In this document: piece after piece, positions 8,988 to 33,948 of the stretch
Layout: every line of letters begins with the position of its first letter
Numbering within the stretch: the stretch's first letter is position 1
Origin: a virus
Reading direction: 5' to 3' (one strand)
DNA length: 37,492 nucleotides
Virus record (IMG/VR): IMGVR_UViG_3300046718_000024
Coordinates: 1 to 37,492 of that record
Made by a program: the position numbers and the translations under genes
Notes under the pieces: model-generated
Database searches by the model: none
Told to the model about the DNA's origin: nothing
The model's input: the letters and a program-made list of their open reading frames with translations, nothing else

Positions 8988-11900
8988 TTACGGCTCCCGG
9001 CCAAATCGCTGTATGAATTTATCTTTAACTTCCGGATGAGCGCGAACATAATCAATATCAGACTGAGATGGCTGAGCTTGTGATGGCGCATTCCCCTGAC
9101 TCTGAGAACCAAGTTGCTTGAAATTAGGAGGTATAGGTTTCTGCGGGTCAAGCTGGTTGGTGGTGTAGTTGATGATCGCTCGTCCTTCAGGACTCAACCA
9201 TGAAAGAGGATCGCGAGAGTGCATAGGTCCCATCGCATCATTATAGCGGTGGCCCGCTGCGGTGATACGACCGGCAAGTAGATTAGCGGCTTCTTGGAAG
9301 GCTCTGCGCTGCTCTACAGGGGAACCATTAATGGGAAAGTTGCTTCTCCATTCAGTGGCTTCTCTTTCACTCGCGCTACCAGAACCACGGAACGATCTCA
9401 TCAACTCGCTGCCTACCGCATCAATGTCTGTCTTGAGACCAGTCAATGCGGATTGAACTTGTGTGTTTCCAACATTCCTAGCGAGAGGATTGGCGATGGC
9501 GTTGTACATTGGATAGGTAGAGTTATGCAGAGCCTCAATGTTGGAGAGCCCCGTGCCGATATGTTTGATTGCCATATCGTTTGAGGTAAAGTTTCTGGCC
9601 TCCACACCGCTGCCCGTGTAGTTCTTTGCAGCCTGCGCTCTCATTGGTGCTGTGTAGGTATTGAATGAAGGATCGTATTGAGAGACTGCACCTAGGACGG
9701 CTGTTCTATCCCGATATCCGACATTGTTAATTCCAACATCGCCATTGGCTATTTGCTTGACTGTGTTAGCTAGACCGGGAGGCAAGGTCTTTAGGTATTC
9801 GTCTCCGGATAAGGTTGTCGGATCGGGACCGGAAGTTTGTCCGCTGATGGTTTTCTGATCGATAGGTTTTTGAGTGATCGGATCAACAAAGGTTCCATCC
9901 GGCTGTCTCTGCCCGTAAGTTGCATGGGTGCGACCATAGGCATCAACGGTCTGGGCTACAATAACTGGCTTTGCTGCCTCCTGAGCCTGATACGGCGTCA
10001 TTCTGGTATATTGATCGAGATGCTGCTTGGCTTGCTGATAAAGCTGCTGAGCTTTTAGATTGACGCCTTCCTCAGTTTGCAAGCTCTTACGTTGTGTATC
10101 CAACTCTCCAGCACCGGCAGCCATGCCGTGGGCAATTGCTGTTCCTACAGGTCCAGTAGTTGAAGCCATTGCTGCTCCGGCCCTAACAAGGGACATCCAA
10201 GGAGAACGGGCGAGGTTCTGGCCCCAATCGCGCTTTAGAGCATCAGGATAGGGTTGCTGACCTTGCGGCATTTGATATGGATTGGCATCAGACATCGTGC
10301 CGGTATCATTTTGCGCGTAGCGAGTATTACCAGAATAGCTAACAGGAGTTGCACCACTCGGTAATGTCTCATCACCGTCAGAACCAAGATACTTATTGGC
10401 GCGGGCCACTTGGAATTGCTGTGCCGGTTTTAGATATCCTTTCACAAACTGAGCCGCCGCCTCTCCCGGCGTTTTGGCATTATTCATTTTGTCCCAGAGA
10501 TCAGGATAATTGTTCTTCAGATTCCACGCAGTAAATTGTCCCTGAAGGGCGGGATCGCGCCAATTACCATTTGGTGCGTTTTGTTTCATCCAACTTTGAT
10601 AGTTATTCCACTCATCTCCACCTTCCTGAAGCAGTCCGTGGGCGTAATGAGCCTCGCCACCAAATTTAGGTTGGTCCGGGTGTCTTAAGCTTGAATTCCA
10701 ACCGCTCTCGTCCGGTACATTCATGAATATACCGCCGAGGAGATTAGGAGAGCCTCCAGCTTCCTTAATCGGAGTGGAAAAGGCGCTCTGAACCGTTCCC
10801 TGTTCCGGATTGGTAAAGCCCCCAACATTAGGTCTTGCTTGCGGTGCGGGGATGGCACCTTGCATGGCATTGCCAAGAACAGCAGACGGGTCTGCTCCCA
10901 TTGCTTCTACCGGAGGGGCATCTCCAGCGGCAAAAAAGCGGTCATCGAATGATGCTGGAGAATCATCTGAACCACCATCGGCAAAGTGCTGGCCAAAGTC
11001 GTAGGGATTGACTGCGCCACCTTCTGCCATATCGCCATAACCAGAACTATTTGATCCAAATAAATTTGGCAGAGACGAAGCCATCTTTAGGGCTTGGGAT
11101 GCTTGGTTTCCAAGCGTATCAGTCTGCGGTCTCATCATGGGTGTCTGCATATTGAGACCACCAGTAAGTAGTCCGGAATGGCCCGCACCCATGCCAAGAG
11201 GCAAATAAGGAATAGGAGCACCGCCGCCGATTCTAGGAACGGCTAAACCAGGGACGGGAGGGGGTGCATTTTGAATGTCACCACCATCGGCAAATGTTGG
11301 AAGCGAGCCGCCGATGGCCTGAAGGGCCTCAGCATCATACGGATTTCCTGCCTGAGCCTGTGGCAGCATGGCTGAGACATCATGCCGATAAGCCTGATCT
11401 GCTAGTTTCCCATAAGTAGAGCCGCCATCGGCCATAGCCGCTCCGCCACGTTCAAATTGACCTCCAATAAGTTGCGGAGATGAAGCTGAGGCACCCTTTC
11501 CAAATCCGCCACCAAATCCACCAAGCCCACCGAAGAGGCCGAGGGCGGATGTACCAAGGCCAAGAACTTGTGAAAGCGGGCTAGGAGAAGGATAAGTGGT
11601 CGTCGATTGCCCCTGCGTAGAACCACCAAGGGCAGGAGCAAGACCGCCAGTAATAGAAGCGAGATACTGGTTGTTCTGATAGGGCCAAGCTATCTGCGCC
11701 AGTTGATTCTGATACCCGGCATTCATCTGAGCCTGAGAGAGTTGCTGCTGCTGTCCACCAGCCGCACCCAAGGCTCCGGTCTCCGTCAAAGCGGAATTAA
11801 GAGCGGCAGGCCCCATCTGGGAAATGCCATATCCAGCACCGGCCTGCATCTGTTTCTGCTGTTGAGCAGCTTGGAGGGCCTGTTGATACAAACCGGCGTA

Positions 11901-12356
11901 GGTCTGCCCGGCAGCCAAGCCTTGCTGATTAGCCAATTCTGATTGACCGACCGCAATACGATCCGCACCAACGCCACCTGCCGCTTGGGTTAACTGTCCT
12001 GTAGTGGCTTGTTGCTGTTGACCAAAGATGTTCTGCATCTGATTGGTCACGCTCTGAGCCATCGGATTGTAGTAGTTGGCTACATCCTGCCCGCTTATCG
12101 GAGCCGCGCTCTGCTGAAGATACTGTTGGCCCTGATTAAAATATGGCTGTGAAAATCCCTGAAGCCCTTGTGTCTGTCCGAATGCTTGCTGCTGGAATGG
12201 GTTAAAGCCAGCGACAGGAGCGGTTGGCATAGCAAAGGGAGACTGTGCAAGACCTTGGGCAGCAGTAATAGCCTGCGTACCCGCTGCACCTACCGGAGCG
12301 TTTGGCGTATATTGTTGACTGGTATTGGTTGAGACCTGATTCGACTTGCTACCCAT
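8988..12356 (-). CDS. Giant ejection protein with embedded peptidoglycan hydrolase
   Basis: This is 1122 residues, the largest in the window. Residues 1-250 are Gln/Ala/Gly-rich with many low-complexity helices. Residues 260-300 are a Gly/Leu hydrophobic stretch (LGLFGGLGGFGGGFGKG). Residues 300-470 carry four [FM]A[DE]GG motifs at about 308, 355, 443 and 458. A domain at about 536-655 resembles phage tail lysozyme: NVPDESGWNSSL with candidate catalytic Glu550, then YAHGLLQEGGDEW, QFTAWNLKNNYPDLWDKM and AAAQFVKGYLKP. It would locally cut the cell wall during DNA entry. The C-terminal 450 residues are soluble, mixed helix and loop. Ejection function is inferred from the context. The start ATG lies after an A/T-rich spacer. 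Confidence 0.8.
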   Translation of the reverse strand: MGSKSNQVSTNTSQQYTPNAPVGAAGTQAITAAQGLAQSPFAMPTAPVAGFNPFQQQAFGQTQGLQGFSQPYFNQGQQYLQQSAAPISGQDVANYYNPMAQSVTNQMQNIFGQQQQATTGQLTQAAGGVGADRIAVGQSELANQQGLAAGQTYAGLYQQALQAAQQQKQMQAGAGYGISQMGPAALNSALTETGALGAAGGQQQQLSQAQMNAGYQNQLAQIAWPYQNNQYLASITGGLAPALGGSTQGQSTTTYPSPSPLSQVLGLGTSALGLFGGLGGFGGGFGKGASASSPQLIGGQFERGGAAMADGGSTYGKLADQAYRHDVSAMLPQAQAGNPYDAEALQAIGGSLPTFADGGDIQNAPPPVPGLAVPRIGGGAPIPYLPLGMGAGHSGLLTGGLNMQTPMMRPQTDTLGNQASQALKMASSLPNLFGSNSSGYGDMAEGGAVNPYDFGQHFADGGSDDSPASFDDRFFAAGDAPPVEAMGADPSAVLGNAMQGAIPAPQARPNVGGFTNPEQGTVQSAFSTPIKEAGGSPNLLGGIFMNVPDESGWNSSLRHPDQPKFGGEAHYAHGLLQEGGDEWNNYQSWMKQNAPNGNWRDPALQGQFTAWNLKNNYPDLWDKMNNAKTPGEAAAQFVKGYLKPAQQFQVARANKYLGSDGDETLPSGATPVSYSGNTRYAQNDTGTMSDANPYQMPQGQQPYPDALKRDWGQNLARSPWMSLVRAGAAMASTTGPVGTAIAHGMAAGAGELDTQRKSLQTEEGVNLKAQQLYQQAKQHLDQYTRMTPYQAQEAAKPVIVAQTVDAYGRTHATYGQRQPDGTFVDPITQKPIDQKTISGQTSGPDPTTLSGDEYLKTLPPGLANTVKQIANGDVGINNVGYRDRTAVLGAVSQYDPSFNTYTAPMRAQAAKNYTGSGVEARNFTSNDMAIKHIGTGLSNIEALHNSTYPMYNAIANPLARNVGNTQVQSALTGLKTDIDAVGSELMRSFRGSGSASEREATEWRSNFPINGSPVEQRRAFQEAANLLAGRITAAGHRYNDAMGPMHSRDPLSWLSPEGRAIINYTTNQLDPQKPIPPNFKQLGSQSQGNAPSQAQPSQSDIDYVRAHPEVKDKFIQRFGREP

Positions 12357-17523: not shown

Positions 17524-18302
17524 GTGTTGCTACTTCCATCAGAGACGTTGAATTGAACCTGTGCAACGGCGATTCCAGATGCCCCACCATAGAAGGCAAC
17601 GCGGTGGAATTGATATCTAGCTCCTATACCTGTGCCGGTGATGCTCTCGCCAACCGTTCCCACTGGATTGCCGGATGCAATCGTTGTCCATGATCCAAAG
17701 CCGGAGTTAACCTGAGAACCTTGAACAACATAGGCTGTCGAGCCAAATGTGCTGTTGTTCGGGGCGGTGATAGTAAAGGACTCAACCGTATGAGTTAGAA
17801 CGGGAGAGTCGAGACTCGCTGGCAGCGTTGTCGCCGGATATCCTGACCAGTTAATCCCTACATAATTGTTGTAGCTGGAGTTCGGCGTGCTAATCATGGC
17901 AGACATGAAGGATGGCTTATTCACATTGCCGTCGAAGGCCGCAGGAACACCACCGGCATTCACCATGTTGCCGATCTGGCCGCTGAACTGCCAACGTGAT
18001 GGGCTTGGATTAGCGCCTATCGCGGAGAGTGGATTGCTGTCTGGGACATATTGCTCTGGTCGAGCGTTCTGTATTGGAATTGGATCGGCAGGTAGTATGA
18101 TCGTGCGCTGGCCGTTTTCCTGAAATTGGTCAATGCAACTTTCACAGCATAGGATTCGTAAGTTCTGCAACTTTACGCCTCTGTAATCGTACTGCCACCG
18201 TAGCTTGTAATGGTTAGTAGTTCTACCGCAGCGGTCGCAAATACCTTTTGCTGCTGGGAATGACGGACTGATATCAGCTTCACCGTGCGGGCGGTAACTC
18301 AT
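17520..18302 (-). CDS. Zinc-ribbon virion protein with galactose-binding-like end
   Basis: This is 260 residues. Residues 22-57 contain a zinc ribbon, CDRCGRTT ... CCESCIDQ, with a W-Q-Y-D-Y-R-G core between the two cysteine pairs. I recall this arrangement at the N-terminus of tail-region proteins in similar phages. After a Pro-rich linker, residues about 125-260 form a beta-sandwich-like domain with a repeated T-x-E-S/F-T-I-T pattern and the ending RYQFHRVAFYGGASGIAVAQ, reminiscent of discoidin or F5/8-type carbohydrate-binding folds. A glycan-binding tail role is inferred. It is separated from its upstream neighbour by an inserted HNH endonuclease gene, which it overlaps at ATGA. Confidence 0.75.
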   Translation of the reverse strand: MSYRPHGEADISPSFPAAKGICDRCGRTTNHYKLRWQYDYRGVKLQNLRILCCESCIDQFQENGQRTIILPADPIPIQNARPEQYVPDSNPLSAIGANPSPSRWQFSGQIGNMVNAGGVPAAFDGNVNKPSFMSAMISTPNSSYNNYVGINWSGYPATTLPASLDSPVLTHTVESFTITAPNNSTFGSTAYVVQGSQVNSGFGSWTTIASGNPVGTVGESITGTGIGARYQFHRVAFYGGASGIAVAQVQFNVSDGSSNT

Positions 18303-18775
18303 CTAGCCCTCGCAAATTCAGAGAAATGCTCTTTTGCTGCCTTTATATACGCAGCATGAGCATCTTCTCGCGTTTGAAAGGTTCCTAAATATCTAGTCTT
18401 ATAATCTACGTGGATGTAAGCTCTAATTGCACCATTCCTCTTATCGATAACAATTCCTTTCACACCAGATTTATTATTTTTACTTATACGCGAATTTCCG
18501 CTGTTTTGTTGCTGCGTTGCCAATCGCAAGTTGCAAATTCTGTTGTCTGATCTAACTCCATTAATGTGATCAATTTGTCTCTCAGGAGCAGAACCATAAA
18601 TATATAGCCATGCTAATCTATGAAGATATACGCGATGCCCATCTATTTTGGCTTCTCTATATCCTTGAGAATGGGCCGATCCAATGATTTTGCGACCGCG
18701 AGTATTCTTCCACCGGAAAATCCCAGTGTCAGGATCGTAGTCTACAAGTTCTTTTAATCTCTCAGTCGGTATCAT
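18299..18775 (-). CDS. HNH/AP2-type homing endonuclease
   Basis: This is 158 residues. The N-terminal part (DYDPDTGIFRWKNTRGRK, then GYREAKIDGHRVYLHRLAW) leads to a HNH_3 core QIDHINGVRSDNRICNLRLA with Asp69-His70, Asn78 and Asn82. The C-terminal part (SGVKGIVIDKRNGAIRAYIH and YLGTFQTREDAHAAYIKA) is an AP2-like DNA-binding domain. It is a free-standing selfish endonuclease that cuts near its insertion site and spreads by repair. It lies between the gp4-like adaptor gene and the zinc-ribbon protein gene and joins them with only nine bases on one side and an ATGA overlap on the other. Confidence 0.92.
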   Translation of the reverse strand: MIPTERLKELVDYDPDTGIFRWKNTRGRKIIGSAHSQGYREAKIDGHRVYLHRLAWLYIYGSAPERQIDHINGVRSDNRICNLRLATQQQNSGNSRISKNNKSGVKGIVIDKRNGAIRAYIHVDYKTRYLGTFQTREDAHAAYIKAAKEHFSEFARAR

Positions 18776-20332: not shown

Positions 20333-20635
20333 TTATGGCTCTATTATACGAATCACACCAGTCTGGGCAGCGGTAGAAAACCCCGTAGCATACACGGACC
20401 ATGGGGCAAGACCCAAGGCAGCCGAGGTGGATGACCACACCCCGAGAAAGAAGCTATTGACCGGCCCTAATGTCACCGTGTCCGTCTGTGAGGCATTACT
20501 GATATTAGTGTAAGTAATGCTCAGAGTAGCCCCGCTCGGCACCGTTATCTGGTTATTGGAGTCGAAGAACTCCGCTACGAATTCAGCGGAATTTCCCTGA
20601 ACGATGTTAACGGGGCCTAGACTGATCTGTGTCAT
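20333..20635 (-). CDS. Small beta-rich tail-region protein
   Basis: This is 100 residues of all-beta character resembling an Ig-like sandwich: ISLGPVNIVQGNSAEFVAEF, LSITYTNISNASQTDTVTL, then FFLGVWSSTSAALG and TGVIRIIEP. This is a common layout of small phage structural proteins of unknown function (an Ig-like domain with about seven strands). It lies between two fibre-type genes and its ATG directly follows the previous TAA. Whether it is part of a fibre or a chaperone for one cannot be told. Confidence 0.7.
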   Translation of the reverse strand: MTQISLGPVNIVQGNSAEFVAEFFDSNNQITVPSGATLSITYTNISNASQTDTVTLGPVNSFFLGVWSSTSAALGLAPWSVYATGFSTAAQTGVIRIIEP

Positions 20636-22033
20636 TTATGTCTCTTCGATGGATACGGCGGCGCTATCCGTGGCCTTAATTTCCTTAATCGACACAAAGC
20701 ACCTTCCCGGACCGGTTTGATTATACACATAAATGCCGAAGGCGGCACTGTCCTTATTCGTCTCCGTGACCGCCATTACTAGGGTAACGGTGGGTAGTGC
20801 AGGGGGCTTGGTATCTGTACCGAAAAACTGCTGGACTCTTGCCCATAGCCCCTTCTTCTCCCGAACAGGCTCACTGAACGGCTCGTACCACTGGATGAGC
20901 TTGGTCAGGATCGGGAAGATCGGGGCAGAAGGAGCGGTAGCCTGCTGCAACCCAGTCCCAAGTCCCGGCTTCTTTCGGACAGGCTCCGACCACGGGTACA
21001 GCCAAGTTGGTATCTTGGAAGTCGGGATAGGCGTCGTATCGGCAGTAAAGGTCTGCTGAAGGGTGTAGGACAGACCTTGCTTTTGTCTGACAGGCTCGCT
21101 GAGCGGATCAAACCACTGGATCAGCGTTGTGAGGGTTGGGAAGACCGGGGGCTCAGCGGAGAATTGCTGCTCCGCAACAGGCAGACCCAGTTTCAGACGA
21201 ACTGGATTGGTCCATGACTCGAACCACTTATCAACAGTGATAACTTCAGGGACCGGCGGCAGAAGCGGGGCAGCAACGGCCTGATGTTGCTCAACACCTA
21301 CCTTACGCCTTGTCGGATCAGACCATGGATACTGCCAGCCCTCGATGAACGTACTCGGGATAGGAAGAAAATATGTATATGCGAGAGATTGCTGGTCTGC
21401 TGTCGGGAAATATCTGGTTCTGACAGGCTCTCTAAATGGCGAGTACCACTTACTGACCGTTATGACTTCTGCCGGAGGCGTGGTATTTGGCGCAGCCAGC
21501 ACCGATTGAAGCGCAGCAGAGATTGCCCTTCTTCTCGGTTCCGAGAATGGCACATACCAGTCAATGGCATTTGGTATGACGGCTGTTTCAGCAACAACCT
21601 GATAGATGATCGTCTTTTGGAAGGAGAGGCCGGTATCACCCTGCTCCAGATTAAAATAGGTCGGGGCAACAGGTGGCGGTGGCGTCCCTGCAATTAACGG
21701 GCTGGTAATCGCGCCCCAGATGGTAACGCGGGTAAAGGTGACGGTTCCACTCTCACCTTCAAAGAAGGTCGGGACGGTCGCAGCAGTTGGCTTCAGAACT
21801 GGCTCGGTATGGGACTGGTAGAAAAACCTGCTGCGGTAAGTAACCGGCGAACTGAGCGCAGACGTAACTACTGCTGTAACCGGAGTAGGCGTAAAAACCG
21901 GCTCCGTATGCGACTGATAAATAAAGCTTCTGGGGAAGATAACGGCGGTAGTCATTGCCGCTACGAAAATTGCAGCAGCAACGGTTGGTACGGTAACCGG
22001 CTCCGTCTTTATCTGATAGAGCCACCTAGACAT
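20636..22033 (-). CDS. Repeat-built tail-region protein with 37-residue W..SEPVR units
   Basis: This is 465 residues. Seven tandem units each begin with a tryptophan, at residues 159, 196, 233, 270, 307, 344 and 382, so the spacing is 37, 37, 37, 37, 37, 38. The core is W-[YFLQ]-x-[PS]-[FWL]-[STR]-[EDN]-P-[VTR]-R-x-[KRA], for example WLYPWSEPVRKKPGLGTGLQQ-type cores, followed by a QQ and a Pro-rich linker. Three degenerate N-terminal units (residues about 5, 38, 71) read Y-Q-x-x-T-E-P-V with a 33-residue spacing. The C-terminal 50 residues (LVMAVTETNKD, then FVSIKEI and AVSIEE) match the end of the smaller paralogue at 23554. No known fold is recognised. A fibre or adhesin scaffold is inferred from its position. 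Confidence 0.85.
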   Translation of the reverse strand: MSRWLYQIKTEPVTVPTVAAAIFVAAMTTAVIFPRSFIYQSHTEPVFTPTPVTAVVTSALSSPVTYRSRFFYQSHTEPVLKPTAATVPTFFEGESGTVTFTRVTIWGAITSPLIAGTPPPPVAPTYFNLEQGDTGLSFQKTIIYQVVAETAVIPNAIDWYVPFSEPRRRAISAALQSVLAAPNTTPPAEVITVSKWYSPFREPVRTRYFPTADQQSLAYTYFLPIPSTFIEGWQYPWSDPTRRKVGVEQHQAVAAPLLPPVPEVITVDKWFESWTNPVRLKLGLPVAEQQFSAEPPVFPTLTTLIQWFDPLSEPVRQKQGLSYTLQQTFTADTTPIPTSKIPTWLYPWSEPVRKKPGLGTGLQQATAPSAPIFPILTKLIQWYEPFSEPVREKKGLWARVQQFFGTDTKPPALPTVTLVMAVTETNKDSAAFGIYVYNQTGPGRCFVSIKEIKATDSAAVSIEET

Positions 22034-22039
22034 TTATAT

Positions 22040-23170
22040 CTAATACCCCGTTGGAGTTCTTCTATCGAATACCATTGATAGATTTGAATCTACCGAAATA
22101 GCTCCGCCAGCAGGCGCTGTGATGGTGATGCCGGTGTTATGGCCATTGTCTATGGAGCTACTCGCAGTGAACGTGCCGCCGCCTGTAAAAGCTATATCTC
22201 GAAGGGAGACATATTGCAGGGTTGATGCTCCACTGGATACAGAAATTGTTGCCAATGTCCCCAATGTGTCGGAACATATGAAGAGATAATCGGACGCGTT
22301 TGCCGTCATTGTAAACGCATTCGACACAGTTTGAGTGGTAGGGCCTACAAGATTAAGTGTTAGCGGCGTTGTTAGCGTGCCACAAGCAATATTAGCGAAC
22401 GTATTTGCTCCAGTGATCTTGTTAAATCCACCTAATGTATTTCCTCCGCTTATAGTAAAGGTTCCATATGTTGTTACGCCGCCGCCCGCAAAAGTCCTAT
22501 TAGTCGTTTGGTTTGCATCGACTATCCAATTTATATTCGCAGTAAACCCGGAAGAGGTCAGCCCGCTTGTTGTAAGATTCCAAGGAGTCGTAGCGCCTCC
22601 GCTCGTTCTTACGGTCCAGGTTCCGGTCCCTATCAAAACGCGGGTGCTACCACTGTTACAAATAAAATTTATCAGACTGACGTTAAAGCTTTGCGCGTCA
22701 AAGGTTCCGGCAGTAAGTGTTATTGTGGCATTAACGCTGGCAACCATTCCGACTATTGCATCCTGCAATTGGAATGTGCCACCCGCCCCATTAAAAGTTA
22801 AAGCAGGAACCGTTTTGCCATTGGTAGTTATCTGTTGAGTGCCGGAAGTTCCTGTAAATGTGAAAGTTCCTGTATGGGCATAGGTTGCGCCTACCCCGTC
22901 TGGTAGCGTGAGATTGCCGCCTGATATAGTAATAGCTGCCGCACCAGTAATGGCATTTTTAGAGCCCGTGCAGACCAGAGAATTGAGTGAGATTACGGTA
23001 TTCCAAACCGATCCTCCAGTTCCACTATTGCCGTCAAATATAACATCATCCCCGGTTACTGGTATGGCGGCCCCGCCTGCCCCGCCTGATCCAATAATTG
23101 ACCAGTTTGTAGGACCTACTGCATTCCAGTTGGTAGAGCTACCGCCGCCGACCCACCAGTGCGTCGTCAT
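22040..23170 (-). CDS. Beta-helical adhesin-like tail protein
   Basis: This is 376 residues. It opens HWWVGGGSSTNWNAVGPTNW, a start I associate with beta-helix surface proteins in phages and bacteria. Successive short strands rich in Thr, Ser, Asn and Gly follow (ITISGGNLTLPDG, TFTFTGTSGTQQITTN, TLTAGTFDAQSF, TFTISGGNTLGGFN), as expected for a right-handed beta-helix. The final segment (YVSLRDIAFTGGGTFTASSS and SIDNGHNTGITITAP) resembles capping rungs. There is no catalytic motif, so receptor binding is more likely than depolymerase activity, but neither is shown. Confidence 0.78.
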   Translation of the reverse strand: MTTHWWVGGGSSTNWNAVGPTNWSIIGSGGAGGAAIPVTGDDVIFDGNSGTGGSVWNTVISLNSLVCTGSKNAITGAAAITISGGNLTLPDGVGATYAHTGTFTFTGTSGTQQITTNGKTVPALTFNGAGGTFQLQDAIVGMVASVNATITLTAGTFDAQSFNVSLINFICNSGSTRVLIGTGTWTVRTSGGATTPWNLTTSGLTSSGFTANINWIVDANQTTNRTFAGGGVTTYGTFTISGGNTLGGFNKITGANTFANIACGTLTTPLTLNLVGPTTQTVSNAFTMTANASDYLFICSDTLGTLATISVSSGASTLQYVSLRDIAFTGGGTFTASSSIDNGHNTGITITAPAGGAISVDSNLSMVFDRRTPTGY

Positions 23171-23174
23171 TGGC

Positions 23175-23552
23175 TTATCCTAATGCCGGAGGGGCCATGA
23201 CTGGCGGCAGCGGCTGTATCACCTTATTTTGCGAGTTAGAGATTTGCGTATTGAGATCGGTTGCCTGCGTATTGAGCGTAGTTTGCTGTGCAGTGAGACT
23301 GTCGATCTGGGCCTGCAAGGCAGTGATTTGGTTGTTCACATCATCGAGTTGCTGTTGCAAGATGACTGCCGGATCGGGTGGAGTGCTGGCTACCGCGATG
23401 AAATTATCAATCCTTGCCTGCTTCAATGCGTCAATGTCGGTCGGTTGCAATTTGGCATATTCATCCTGGGTGAAATACAGGGCATCGCAATACGATCCGT
23501 AGGTTGGGTCGGTGTAGGTAAAAGTAAGGCGGATAGCGATATCGTCAGCCAT
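23175..23552 (-). CDS. Coiled-coil tail-region protein
   Basis: This is 125 residues. The N-terminal third is beta-like with aromatic residues (IRLTFTYTDPTYGSYCDALY) and a helix (EYAKLQPTDIDALKQARID). Residues about 65-112 form a canonical heptad coiled coil (QQQLDDVNNQITALQAQI, LTAQQTTLNTQATDLN). The end is Pro-rich (QPLPPVMAPPAL). It could be a trimeric linker or fibre chaperone. It lies between the beta-helical adhesin and the smaller repeat protein. Confidence 0.75.
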   Translation of the reverse strand: MADDIAIRLTFTYTDPTYGSYCDALYFTQDEYAKLQPTDIDALKQARIDNFIAVASTPPDPAVILQQQLDDVNNQITALQAQIDSLTAQQTTLNTQATDLNTQISNSQNKVIQPLPPVMAPPALG

Positions 23553-23553
23553 G

Positions 23554-24153
23554 CTAAGGCTCCTCTATTGAGACATTCCCGCCTTCCGTTGCGGGTATTT
23601 CTTTTACAGTAACATTGGAACCCATTATTAGCACATACGGCGTCGGGGGAGTATCATAGACATCGACCCCGGATATGATCGTGTCCCTGTTCGACTCACT
23701 TACGGACATGACAAGGAAGATACTCGGTGGAGCAAGCTTAAGTGGTGGATGAGCAAGGGTCTGCTGAAGGAAGGATTTAAGCCCCTTCTTAGGCCATACC
23801 GGCTCAGCAAACCATTGATACCAGCCCTCTAATGTGTTGGATGGGCTAGGAACTACAGAAAAAGGCAATGAATTGAAGAGATTAAGTCCGGGTCCCAACC
23901 TCGGCCTGACTCTGACCGGCTCGGACCACGCCTGATGCCAGCGGCTCTCAAACTTCTGGATAATCTCTGTATTTGGGTTGAGAACCGGAGCAATCAGCCC
24001 TGACGTTATTAGGGCAACTGCAAGTCGCGGTATTATCTTTTGACGCACCGGCTCAGACCACGCCTGATGCCAAGCACTCTCAAAACTCTGAATAAATAAG
24101 ACCGCCTCTGGGGGCTCTGCCTTAATTTGATATTGTTGAGTATTGAATGACAT
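23554..24153 (-). CDS. Small paralogue of the W..SEPVR repeat protein
   Basis: This is 199 residues from the ATG of a TGATG overlap. Three clear units, AWHQAWSEPVRQK, RWHQAWSEPVRVR and WYQWFAEPVWPKK, begin with tryptophans at residues 28, 72 and 111, preceded by a degenerate QYQIKAEPPE. The spacing is longer (44, 39) than in the 465-residue relative. The C-terminus (FLVMSVSESNRD, VTVKEIPATEGGNVSIEEP) matches the end of that relative. The two proteins therefore share both the repeat and the terminal domain and arose by duplication. The beta-helix and coiled-coil genes lie between them. Confidence 0.83.
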   Translation of the reverse strand: MSFNTQQYQIKAEPPEAVLFIQSFESAWHQAWSEPVRQKIIPRLAVALITSGLIAPVLNPNTEIIQKFESRWHQAWSEPVRVRPRLGPGLNLFNSLPFSVVPSPSNTLEGWYQWFAEPVWPKKGLKSFLQQTLAHPPLKLAPPSIFLVMSVSESNRDTIISGVDVYDTPPTPYVLIMGSNVTVKEIPATEGGNVSIEEP

Positions 24154-24818
24154 CAATACCCAACCATGGTCGGCCTTGACCTTGTAATGGAACCGAGCGG
24201 TGGAAGAAACGCACTCTCAGCAGCCGGTGCTATTGCAAGGGTTTGTGCAACCCAATCCTTAACAGAAGAAACAGTCCACGCGCTGGGATCGTCACTAGAA
24301 GCGTTCAACTGTCTTTGGGCGGAACCTATACAAAGCGTAACGCCTCCGGTTTGACTGAGGGTATTTGTGTAGTTTGTAGGCGATACGCTAATGGCTTCAT
24401 TAAAATCCTGCGCAAACGCTGAAATCCATAAGGTATCTTTAGCCCCCCACGAAGGAGCAAGGGACGGAGAGTTTGGAAATCTTGAGGTGCCAGTGGCTGC
24501 TACCCCTTTTTCAGGGATAAGACCCCAGCCGGAAATTCTATATATGTTGTAAACAGTAAGACTGGCAGTGCCTAAAGTGAATGTTTGCGATGCACCCTCG
24601 GTGCCATCAGAAACACGGTAACCTACTGATAATTGGACGGTGTTGTTATCCGCAGATAGGAAAGACCACCCTGCTAAACTAACCGTAGTTGTTCCAGAAA
24701 ACCCAAAGACGACAAGCAGCAAGTCTCCAGCCACAACACCGGCTGGCATATTGACGACTTGTGACGTACTGGAAGTGTTACTCCCGCCTGTCGTACTCTG
24801 AGGGTTTGGGAAGGTCAT
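24153..24818 (-). CDS. Beta-sandwich tail-region protein
   Basis: This is 221 residues. A conserved-looking N-terminal module reads VVNMPAGVVAGDLLLVVFGF, then TVSLAGWSFLSADNN and SVGYRVSDGTEG, a pattern I know from phage and bacterial surface domains of the 'A-G-D-L-L-L' type. Further strands include SLTVYNIYRISGWG and GAKDTLWISAFAQDFNEAIS. The C-terminus contains a DDPSAWTVSSVKDWVAQTLA strand pair before a short basic tail. Carbohydrate or surface binding is inferred. No enzymatic motif is present. Confidence 0.75.
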   Translation of the reverse strand: MTFPNPQSTTGGSNTSSTSQVVNMPAGVVAGDLLLVVFGFSGTTTVSLAGWSFLSADNNTVQLSVGYRVSDGTEGASQTFTLGTASLTVYNIYRISGWGLIPEKGVAATGTSRFPNSPSLAPSWGAKDTLWISAFAQDFNEAISVSPTNYTNTLSQTGGVTLCIGSAQRQLNASSDDPSAWTVSSVKDWVAQTLAIAPAAESAFLPPLGSITRSRPTMVGY

Positions 24819-25813: not shown

Positions 25814-26335
25814 TTAACCTGCGTTGAAGAAGGGGCCGTGAAGTTGCTTGGCTGTGGCAGAGGCCCAAGCATAAGCCTCTTCTTTAGTCTTAAAGTAGCG
25901 TTGCTTTCTGGTTTTACCAAACCAGACCGAACCTTGGTAAAGGTCTCTATATTTTCGTTTAGAGACCCATTTAGTATTTATGGCGTTTGTCTTCCGTACC
26001 AGAGTATTTGCAGCCTGTTCACTATAACTGGCCAGTCGAAGATTAATTATACGATTATCACCCTTATCGCCATTGATGTGATCTATTGTCATGGATGGCC
26101 ATTCGCCATTAACGTATGTCCAAACAATATGATGAGCATAGAACTGGACATACTTTCCTTCTCTTCGTAGACCAATTTTCCTGTATCCGGGTCCAACAAA
26201 ACAACCAGCAGGCTTATTGCGATGCCTGCCCATGCCGCGCTCTTTCCAAAAAACCTCTCCTGTGTTGGGATTAACAACAAAGAAATCCCTGATTTCATCA
26301 AGGGAGAGACTTTTATCGTGATTGATAGCAACCAT
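25814..26335 (-). CDS. HNH homing endonuclease (second copy)
   Basis: This is 173 residues. It has the same order as the other HNH gene but low identity: NPNTGEVFWKERG, then a strand pair ending HHIVWTYVNGEWP, the HNH core TIDHINGDKGDNRIINLRLA (Asp85-His86, Asn94, Asn98), and a C-terminal AP2-like part (DLYQGSVWFGKTRKQRYF, KTKEEAYAWASATAKQLHG). It lies two bases after the Rossmann-type gene and before the 184-residue virion gene. It looks like an independent invasion rather than a recent duplication of the first HNH gene. Confidence 0.92.
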   Translation of the reverse strand: MVAINHDKSLSLDEIRDFFVVNPNTGEVFWKERGMGRHRNKPAGCFVGPGYRKIGLRREGKYVQFYAHHIVWTYVNGEWPSMTIDHINGDKGDNRIINLRLASYSEQAANTLVRKTNAINTKWVSKRKYRDLYQGSVWFGKTRKQRYFKTKEEAYAWASATAKQLHGPFFNAG

Positions 26336-33534: not shown

Positions 33535-33948
33535 CTATAGGACCATCATCGGGTCTTTAATCTTCGCAATGAAAGCCGTGTCTTTAATCATCCGGCAGGG
33601 CATCTTGTTGACTTCCAATTGCCAGCCGTCACCGACCTTGAAGACCACCCAATCCCCAACGGAAACACGCTGTTCGTAAAGGGAACCGTCTTCCGGGTCC
33701 ACAAAGGCATTGGGGCCTAGTTTCAAAACTAACCCAACCTTGCCCTGCCAAACATCCTCTTCTTTATTGGCATCCGGGCGAATAATACCACCCTTGGTCT
33801 TTTCCGGCCTCATATAGACGCCGACCAGAACCCTATCCCCCATAACTTCGAATGTTGATAAGTCACCAATAAATCTGAGGATAGCCTCTTTAGGGTCGGA
33901 AGCCGTCGAAATAGCTTCAATTGCCCGGTGTGGAACCACTACGCTCAT
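33535..33948 (-). CDS. GroES-like co-chaperonin
   Basis: This is 137 residues. A 30-residue helical leader precedes a GroES-type barrel at about 34-132: FEVMGDRVLVGVYMRPEKTK, GGIIRPDANKEEDVWQGKVG, LVLKLGPN, VSVGDWVVFKVGDGWQLEVN, and MIKDTAFIAKIKDP. The mobile-loop region (about 50-67) keeps the GGI that contacts GroEL. It would act with the host GroEL during folding of virion proteins, as T4 gp31 does for the T4 capsid protein. Its place between portal and scaffold supports a capsid-folding role. Active pairing with GroEL is inferred, not shown. Confidence 0.88.
   Translation of the reverse strand: MSVVVPHRAIEAISTASDPKEAILRFIGDLSTFEVMGDRVLVGVYMRPEKTKGGIIRPDANKEEDVWQGKVGLVLKLGPNAFVDPEDGSLYEQRVSVGDWVVFKVGDGWQLEVNKMPCRMIKDTAFIAKIKDPMMVL

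Follow-up and report, generated by a model that had tools for sequence, protein, structure and literature searches.

The long-tail-fibre proteins of phage T4 are virion proteins that owe part of their length to quasi-repeats of about 35-45 residues, and head decorations of the T4 Hoc type are attached through their C-termini and expose N-terminal beta domains. In the cellulosome, the scaffoldin is a chain of repeated modules, and unrelated partner proteins carry a common C-terminal tag, the dockerin. Podoviruses of the Pam1, HTVC023P and CRP-901 type have their portal, GroES-like, capsid and adaptor genes in the same order as the phage DNA analysed here, a stretch of 37,492 nucleotides (IMG/VR record IMGVR_UViG_3300046718_000024; hereafter the window). 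Among its structural genes, the window encodes two proteins, P1 and P2, built from a W..SEPVR unit, and here we describe the family to which they belong, which comprises about 48 uncultured viral contigs (a tally over our search tables).

P1 and P2 are built from a recurring W..SEPVR unit

P1 (465 aa; 20636..22033, minus strand) carries seven W..SEPVR units in residues 154-405 (20819..21574, minus strand). The initial annotation had placed them at tryptophans 159, 196, 233, 270, 307, 344 and 382, with a spacing of 37 residues five times and then 38, and these positions were verified in the translation. It had also proposed three units before the array: residues 1-91 (21761..22033, minus strand) hold the N-terminal motif LYQIKTEP and two Y-type units with YQSHTEP, and the TEP core of the three (YQIKTEP, YQSHTEP and YQSHTEP) recurs at 10, 43 and 76, giving the claimed 33-residue spacing. 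P1 ends in a C-terminal domain (residues 410-465; 20639..20806, minus strand) of the pattern TETNKD...VSIKEI...VSIEE. P2 (199 aa; 23554..24153, minus strand), a paralogue of P1, consists of a YQIKAEP N-terminus, three W-units (W28, W72 and W111; spacing 44 and 39) and a P1-type C-terminal domain, its VTVKEI...VSIEE corresponding to the VSIKEI...VSIEE of P1, in agreement with the earlier reading.

A hidden Markov model of the unit was trained on 383 units taken from other phages, with the window proteins left out. With this held-out model, P1 scored 177.4 bits (E 3.3e-54) and P2 96.1 bits (E 2.8e-28), while the top score among 2000 shuffled P1 sequences was 10.4 bits. Because the unit model scores so far above the best shuffled P1, the repeat in P1 and P2 is not due to chance. 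The seven W-units of P1 reached 13.6-35.7 bits each. The Y-type units alone scored only 2-3 bits each, and we accept them as probable units from their shared TEP core and their recurrence in relatives.

An apparently undescribed family in uncultured phages

One direct relative was found with P1, namely L003, from a 73-kb contig, with homologues of 991 and 192 aa. The window adaptor, which is 82% identical to that of L003 and 72% identical to that of L005, is better conserved than P1, and as a query it retrieved 25 loci; the unit profile detected arrays in most of these loci that reach far enough upstream. A search of viral contigs with the DNA pattern WHx(P/A)WSEP gave 50 stretches, nearly all within multi-unit arrays, whereas among genome contigs it had eight matches, one of them a true multi-unit array (L082, a Patescibacteria-binned contig).

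The consensus of the 383 units reads W(86%) H(39) Q(28) P(54) W(51) S(64) E(68) P V(68) R(81) x K(43) x G L(40) x A(43) x x Q(54), in which the P after E is set by the search pattern and W partly so. The initial annotation had regarded the 37-residue period as constant, but this is peculiar to P1: unit spacing in 50 relatives has its mode at 36 and falls mostly between 32 and 45, so that strict 37-residue spacing is not a property of the family and was rejected as such. The linkers between the units vary in length, and several types of them recur (ExxTxDKW, TQIIQxFESRW, NPxVSFxW and IPTSK). Most complete members start with FQYQxKTEP or a similar motif, and many end in the ATETNxD...VSIKEI domain; C-terminal ends of other kinds occur in some arrays (L043, L053, L056 and L064). 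In L070 a beta-rich domain precedes the array, and in the L003 protein at 9035-12010 an IPT/TIG domain (residues 162-236; Pfam 2e-7) is inserted within it. The repeat proteins of L015, L017 and L021 contain in their C-termini a second, shorter repeat, VS(I/T)xEIPAV, of about 15-17 residues and variable copy number.

Neither P1 nor P2 had a match in Pfam or in PHROGs, and for their relatives the inserted TIG domain was the only named match in these libraries; PHROG matches of the long arrays included no single significant stretch. Searches against PDB sequence profiles gave chance-level matches only (best E 0.72 for the unit profile and 0.79 for the C-terminal profile). The unit therefore corresponds to no named domain in Pfam, PHROGs or PDB, as the initial annotation had supposed. 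Five family members, P1 among them, had no credible tblastn match in 50,697 deposited phage records, nor had the one member searched against plasmids, and no description of a W..SEPVR repeat family was found in the literature. By these searches, the P1/P2 family appears to be undescribed: none of the profile libraries or deposited phage genomes searched contains it, but it is present in about 48 uncultured phages.

The repeat gene occupies a conserved place beside the head-tail adaptor

The window contains portal, GroES-like, capsid, SU10/Pam1-type adaptor and phrog_3287 genes, which together form a podovirus-type module, and the adaptor, portal, capsid and GroES-like genes lie in the conserved order of a Pam1-like podovirus structural cassette. 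From these structural genes, we infer that the particle is probably short-tailed. The adaptor, the marker of this phage group (18785..19495, minus strand), was recognised by Pfam (SU10_adaptor, 1.7e-09) and through its relatives. P1 is followed by a 100-aa gene (20333..20635, minus strand) that is kept beside the adaptor in relatives. At least 37 contigs (tallied from the tables) carry the repeat gene next to the adaptor, g24854 or the 100-aa gene, and in about 20 it lies immediately before the 100-aa gene.

P1 and P2 are encoded in a variable cassette, which in Pam1-like podoviruses separates the capsid genes from the adaptor. A GroES co-chaperonin homologue (33535-33948; phrog_3188, E 1.7e-12) lies between the portal and capsid genes of the window and is retained in relatives. 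Two genes at 18299-18775 and 25814-26335, read by eye as HNH-endonuclease-like, lie within the structural cluster, and such genes adjoin the adaptor in some relatives. In L008 (1396-3789), L011 (3-3659) and L013 (417-4499), proteins of about 800-1360 aa that look tailspike-like by eye are encoded immediately before the adaptor, one of them with a signal-peptide-like start.

Units are gained and lost between sister phages

Complete repeat genes encode from 1 to about 21 recognised units in 85 to 1334 aa. L023 and L078 have 8 and 13 units, although their adaptors are 92% identical; L019 and L020 have 19 and 21 units, also at 92% adaptor identity, and L003 and L007 have 15 and 6 units at 79%. The blocks shared by L019 and L020 are 71-96% identical in DNA, some of them at shifted positions. 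Mean identity among the units of one protein is 30%, while adjacent units in L005 are 97% identical in protein, which points to a recent duplication. Between P1 and L003, the penultimate unit has been kept (W344 against W836, 85% identical) and most of the remainder has diverged. These comparisons show that units are gained, lost and shuffled rapidly between sister phages, and the change in length by unit gain and loss that had been anticipated for P1 was borne out by the unit numbers of its relatives. A graded set of natural variants, with 1 to about 21 units, is available at one gene position.

The array is predicted to be extended

AlphaFold2 was run as a monomer on three units and the C-terminal domain with a 78-row alignment, and it returned a model of modest confidence (pLDDT 68, pTM 0.24). 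Each W..PWS is predicted to form a short helix (construct residues 8-13, 45-51 and 83-88), and the rest of the chain is extended. An earlier run on five units and the C-terminal domain, with 33 rows in poor register, had given pLDDT 45 and pTM 0.16. Foldseek with the modest-confidence model as query found no fold match in the PDB. The propeller suggested by the initial annotation, like a solenoid, is not supported by the monomer model, in which an extended chain has one short helical turn per unit at a pTM of 0.24. As modelled, the array would fit beads on a string.

Another arrangement that must be weighed is a homotrimeric fibre shaft, close to the rod of the initial annotation, in which three intertwined chains form a rod, the number of units determines its length and the C-terminal domain is the tip or trimerisation domain. 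The place of the repeat gene in the structural cassette beside the adaptor and the variation in length by units would both suit such a shaft, and the poor monomer model is compatible with it, as intertwined trimers are often modelled badly as monomers. However, a spacing of 32-45 residues and several linker types are looser than a rigid shaft would have, the conserved core is predicted to be a helical turn instead of strands, and an entire TIG domain sits within one array. We consider this shaft rather unlikely.

The largely extended, low-confidence model, together with the lack of a homologue of known location, could also suggest that the repeat protein is not part of the virion at all and either helps in assembly or, being disordered, acts on the host, with its gene lying among structural ones. 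This seems very unlikely to us: the place beside the head-tail genes is strongly conserved over diverged phages, and the inserted TIG domain and lectin-like neighbours suggest surface proteins.

Upstream neighbours share a C-terminal GY tail

Immediately upstream of P1 lies the gene of a 376-aa beta-rich protein (22040..23170, minus strand; no Pfam match) that ends in a tail ...FDRRTPTGY (22043..22081, minus strand), and immediately upstream of P2 that of a 221-aa beta-rich protein (24153..24818, minus strand) that ends in ...ITRSRPTMVGY (24156..24194, minus strand), with the stop of the 221-aa gene overlapping the start of P2 (TGATG). The shared tail is roughly (R/K)xxx(V/I)xGY, i.e., basic, then hydrophobic, then GY. 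Further tail-bearing loci, mostly immediately upstream of repeat genes, include L003 8309-9031, L005 1-1140, L015 1198-1914, L040 9350-11405, L046 5490-7509 and L076 3672-4463, among others. Among nonredundant genes, 15 of the 39 directly upstream ones ended in GY, compared with 11 of the remaining 448 (Fisher p 9e-12); most of these 11 belong to the same variable cassette. The p value is descriptive, because the loci in which the tail was first noticed also supplied the count, and because related contigs are non-independent. Upstream GY-tailed genes are thus statistically associated with repeat genes. In nine loci where a repeat gene was not observed, several of them partial, there was no comparable tail in the region.

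The proteins behind the tail are of several kinds. Laminin_G_3 lectin domains were found twice in L040 and once in L076, with L045 and L082 slightly below the Pfam cut-off, and one tailed lectin matches the PHROGs annotation 'virion structural protein'. Gly-rich tailed proteins occur in L005, L046, L075 and L077 (and L022 has a weak Gly_rich_2 match), while those of L015 and L034, like both window neighbours, were read by eye as beta-rich. A 110-aa protein of L017 (6778-7107; likewise in L016), encoded just before the 100-aa gene, carries a repeat of its own (TNAFPNLxFPQH..., two copies) and ends in a GY tail. The GY tail is a simple sequence tag that ties otherwise unannotated neighbours to the repeat family and, even without docking, helps to annotate proteins of several folds within this group of phages.

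In two loci the tail is joined to a unit on one chain: the 85-aa protein at L070 7374-7628 combines the N-terminal motif with one unit and a GY tail, and the protein at L069 4026-4862 has a unit-like stretch with a variant tail at its end. A chain like that of L070, the position of the genes between the capsid and adaptor genes, and the fact that the window has repeat genes and tailed genes in equal number, two of each, would all be in keeping with capsid decoration, in which each unit binds a repeated site of the capsid or cement lattice and the GY tails bind that lattice too, as parallel decorations and not as partners. Nevertheless, unit number runs from 1 to 21 among close relatives that share a capsid gene type, unlike a lattice-matched tape, and we regard this explanation as unlikely.

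Discussion

The explanation that we tentatively favour, while judging it somewhat short of probable, is that P1 and P2 are modular proteins of the virion type, forming a flexible multivalent array that co-assembles with tailed host-contact proteins. Anchored on the virion close to the neck or head, the array would serve as an extended, flexible connector; its units would act as docking or spacer modules co-assembling with the tailed proteins, which would be presented to the host surface through it, and the number of units would set reach or valency. In favour of this explanation, which is the most economical, are the place of the repeat gene near the adaptor, the change in unit number between phages with closely similar adaptors, the tail association and the lectin and Gly-rich proteins that bear the tail, the fusions in L070 and L069, the overlap of the 221-aa gene with P2, the modelled short helix at each W..PWS within an extended chain, and the TIG insertion. 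The host-contact role proposed in the initial annotation is plausible in light of the lectin-like and Gly-rich neighbours and the TIG domain within one array. Against our preferred explanation count the differing C-terminal ends of L043, L053, L056 and L064, the modest confidence of the AlphaFold model, and two observations on the tails taken up below: their number does not follow that of the units, and the fusions would also fit a third partner.

A more specific form of this explanation, which we hold to be doubtful, is that the W..SEPVR chain serves as a dock for interchangeable lectins and adhesins, holding them by their GY-type C-terminal tails, so that the phage could swap binders and alter valency. 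Gene adjacency and the fusions support such a scaffoldin-like display, but the number of genes with a tail does not rise with the number of units: a simple stoichiometry between tails per genome and units fails in L019 and L020, which have 19-21 units and no canonical upstream GY tail. The fusions in L070 and L069 would also fit a third partner bound by both unit and tail; such a partner, or a trimeric shaft, would explain much of the same evidence. If the tail does dock on the units, the array would be a modular means of swapping host-binding proteins.

Compared with known systems, the window adaptor is 31-44% identical to those of deposited relatives of the Pam1, HTVC023P and CRP-901 type, whereas in the stretches read around the adaptor CRP-901, HTVC023P, DSL-LC04 and the Manatee Spring record have no W..SEPVR gene, and the deposited relatives have no comparable GY tails there. 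Like the long tail fibres of T4, P1 would be a virion-type protein lengthened by quasi-repeats; it differs from them in its W..SEPVR core and Pro-rich variable linkers, in a helical turn instead of beta structure predicted at the core, in a family unit number of 1-21 at one gene position, and in the lack of a sequence match. A C-terminal attachment of the Hoc type would fit the GY-tailed neighbours, although what these proteins share is a short tail and not a domain. The W-units, of about 25-30 residues, are not folded cohesin domains, and the GY tail, a putative binding element of about 13 residues, differs from dockerin in having no Ca-binding repeats. The likeness to scaffoldin and dockerin would be an analogy of working and not homology: a chain of modules adjoining genes for unrelated proteins that are tagged at their C-termini.
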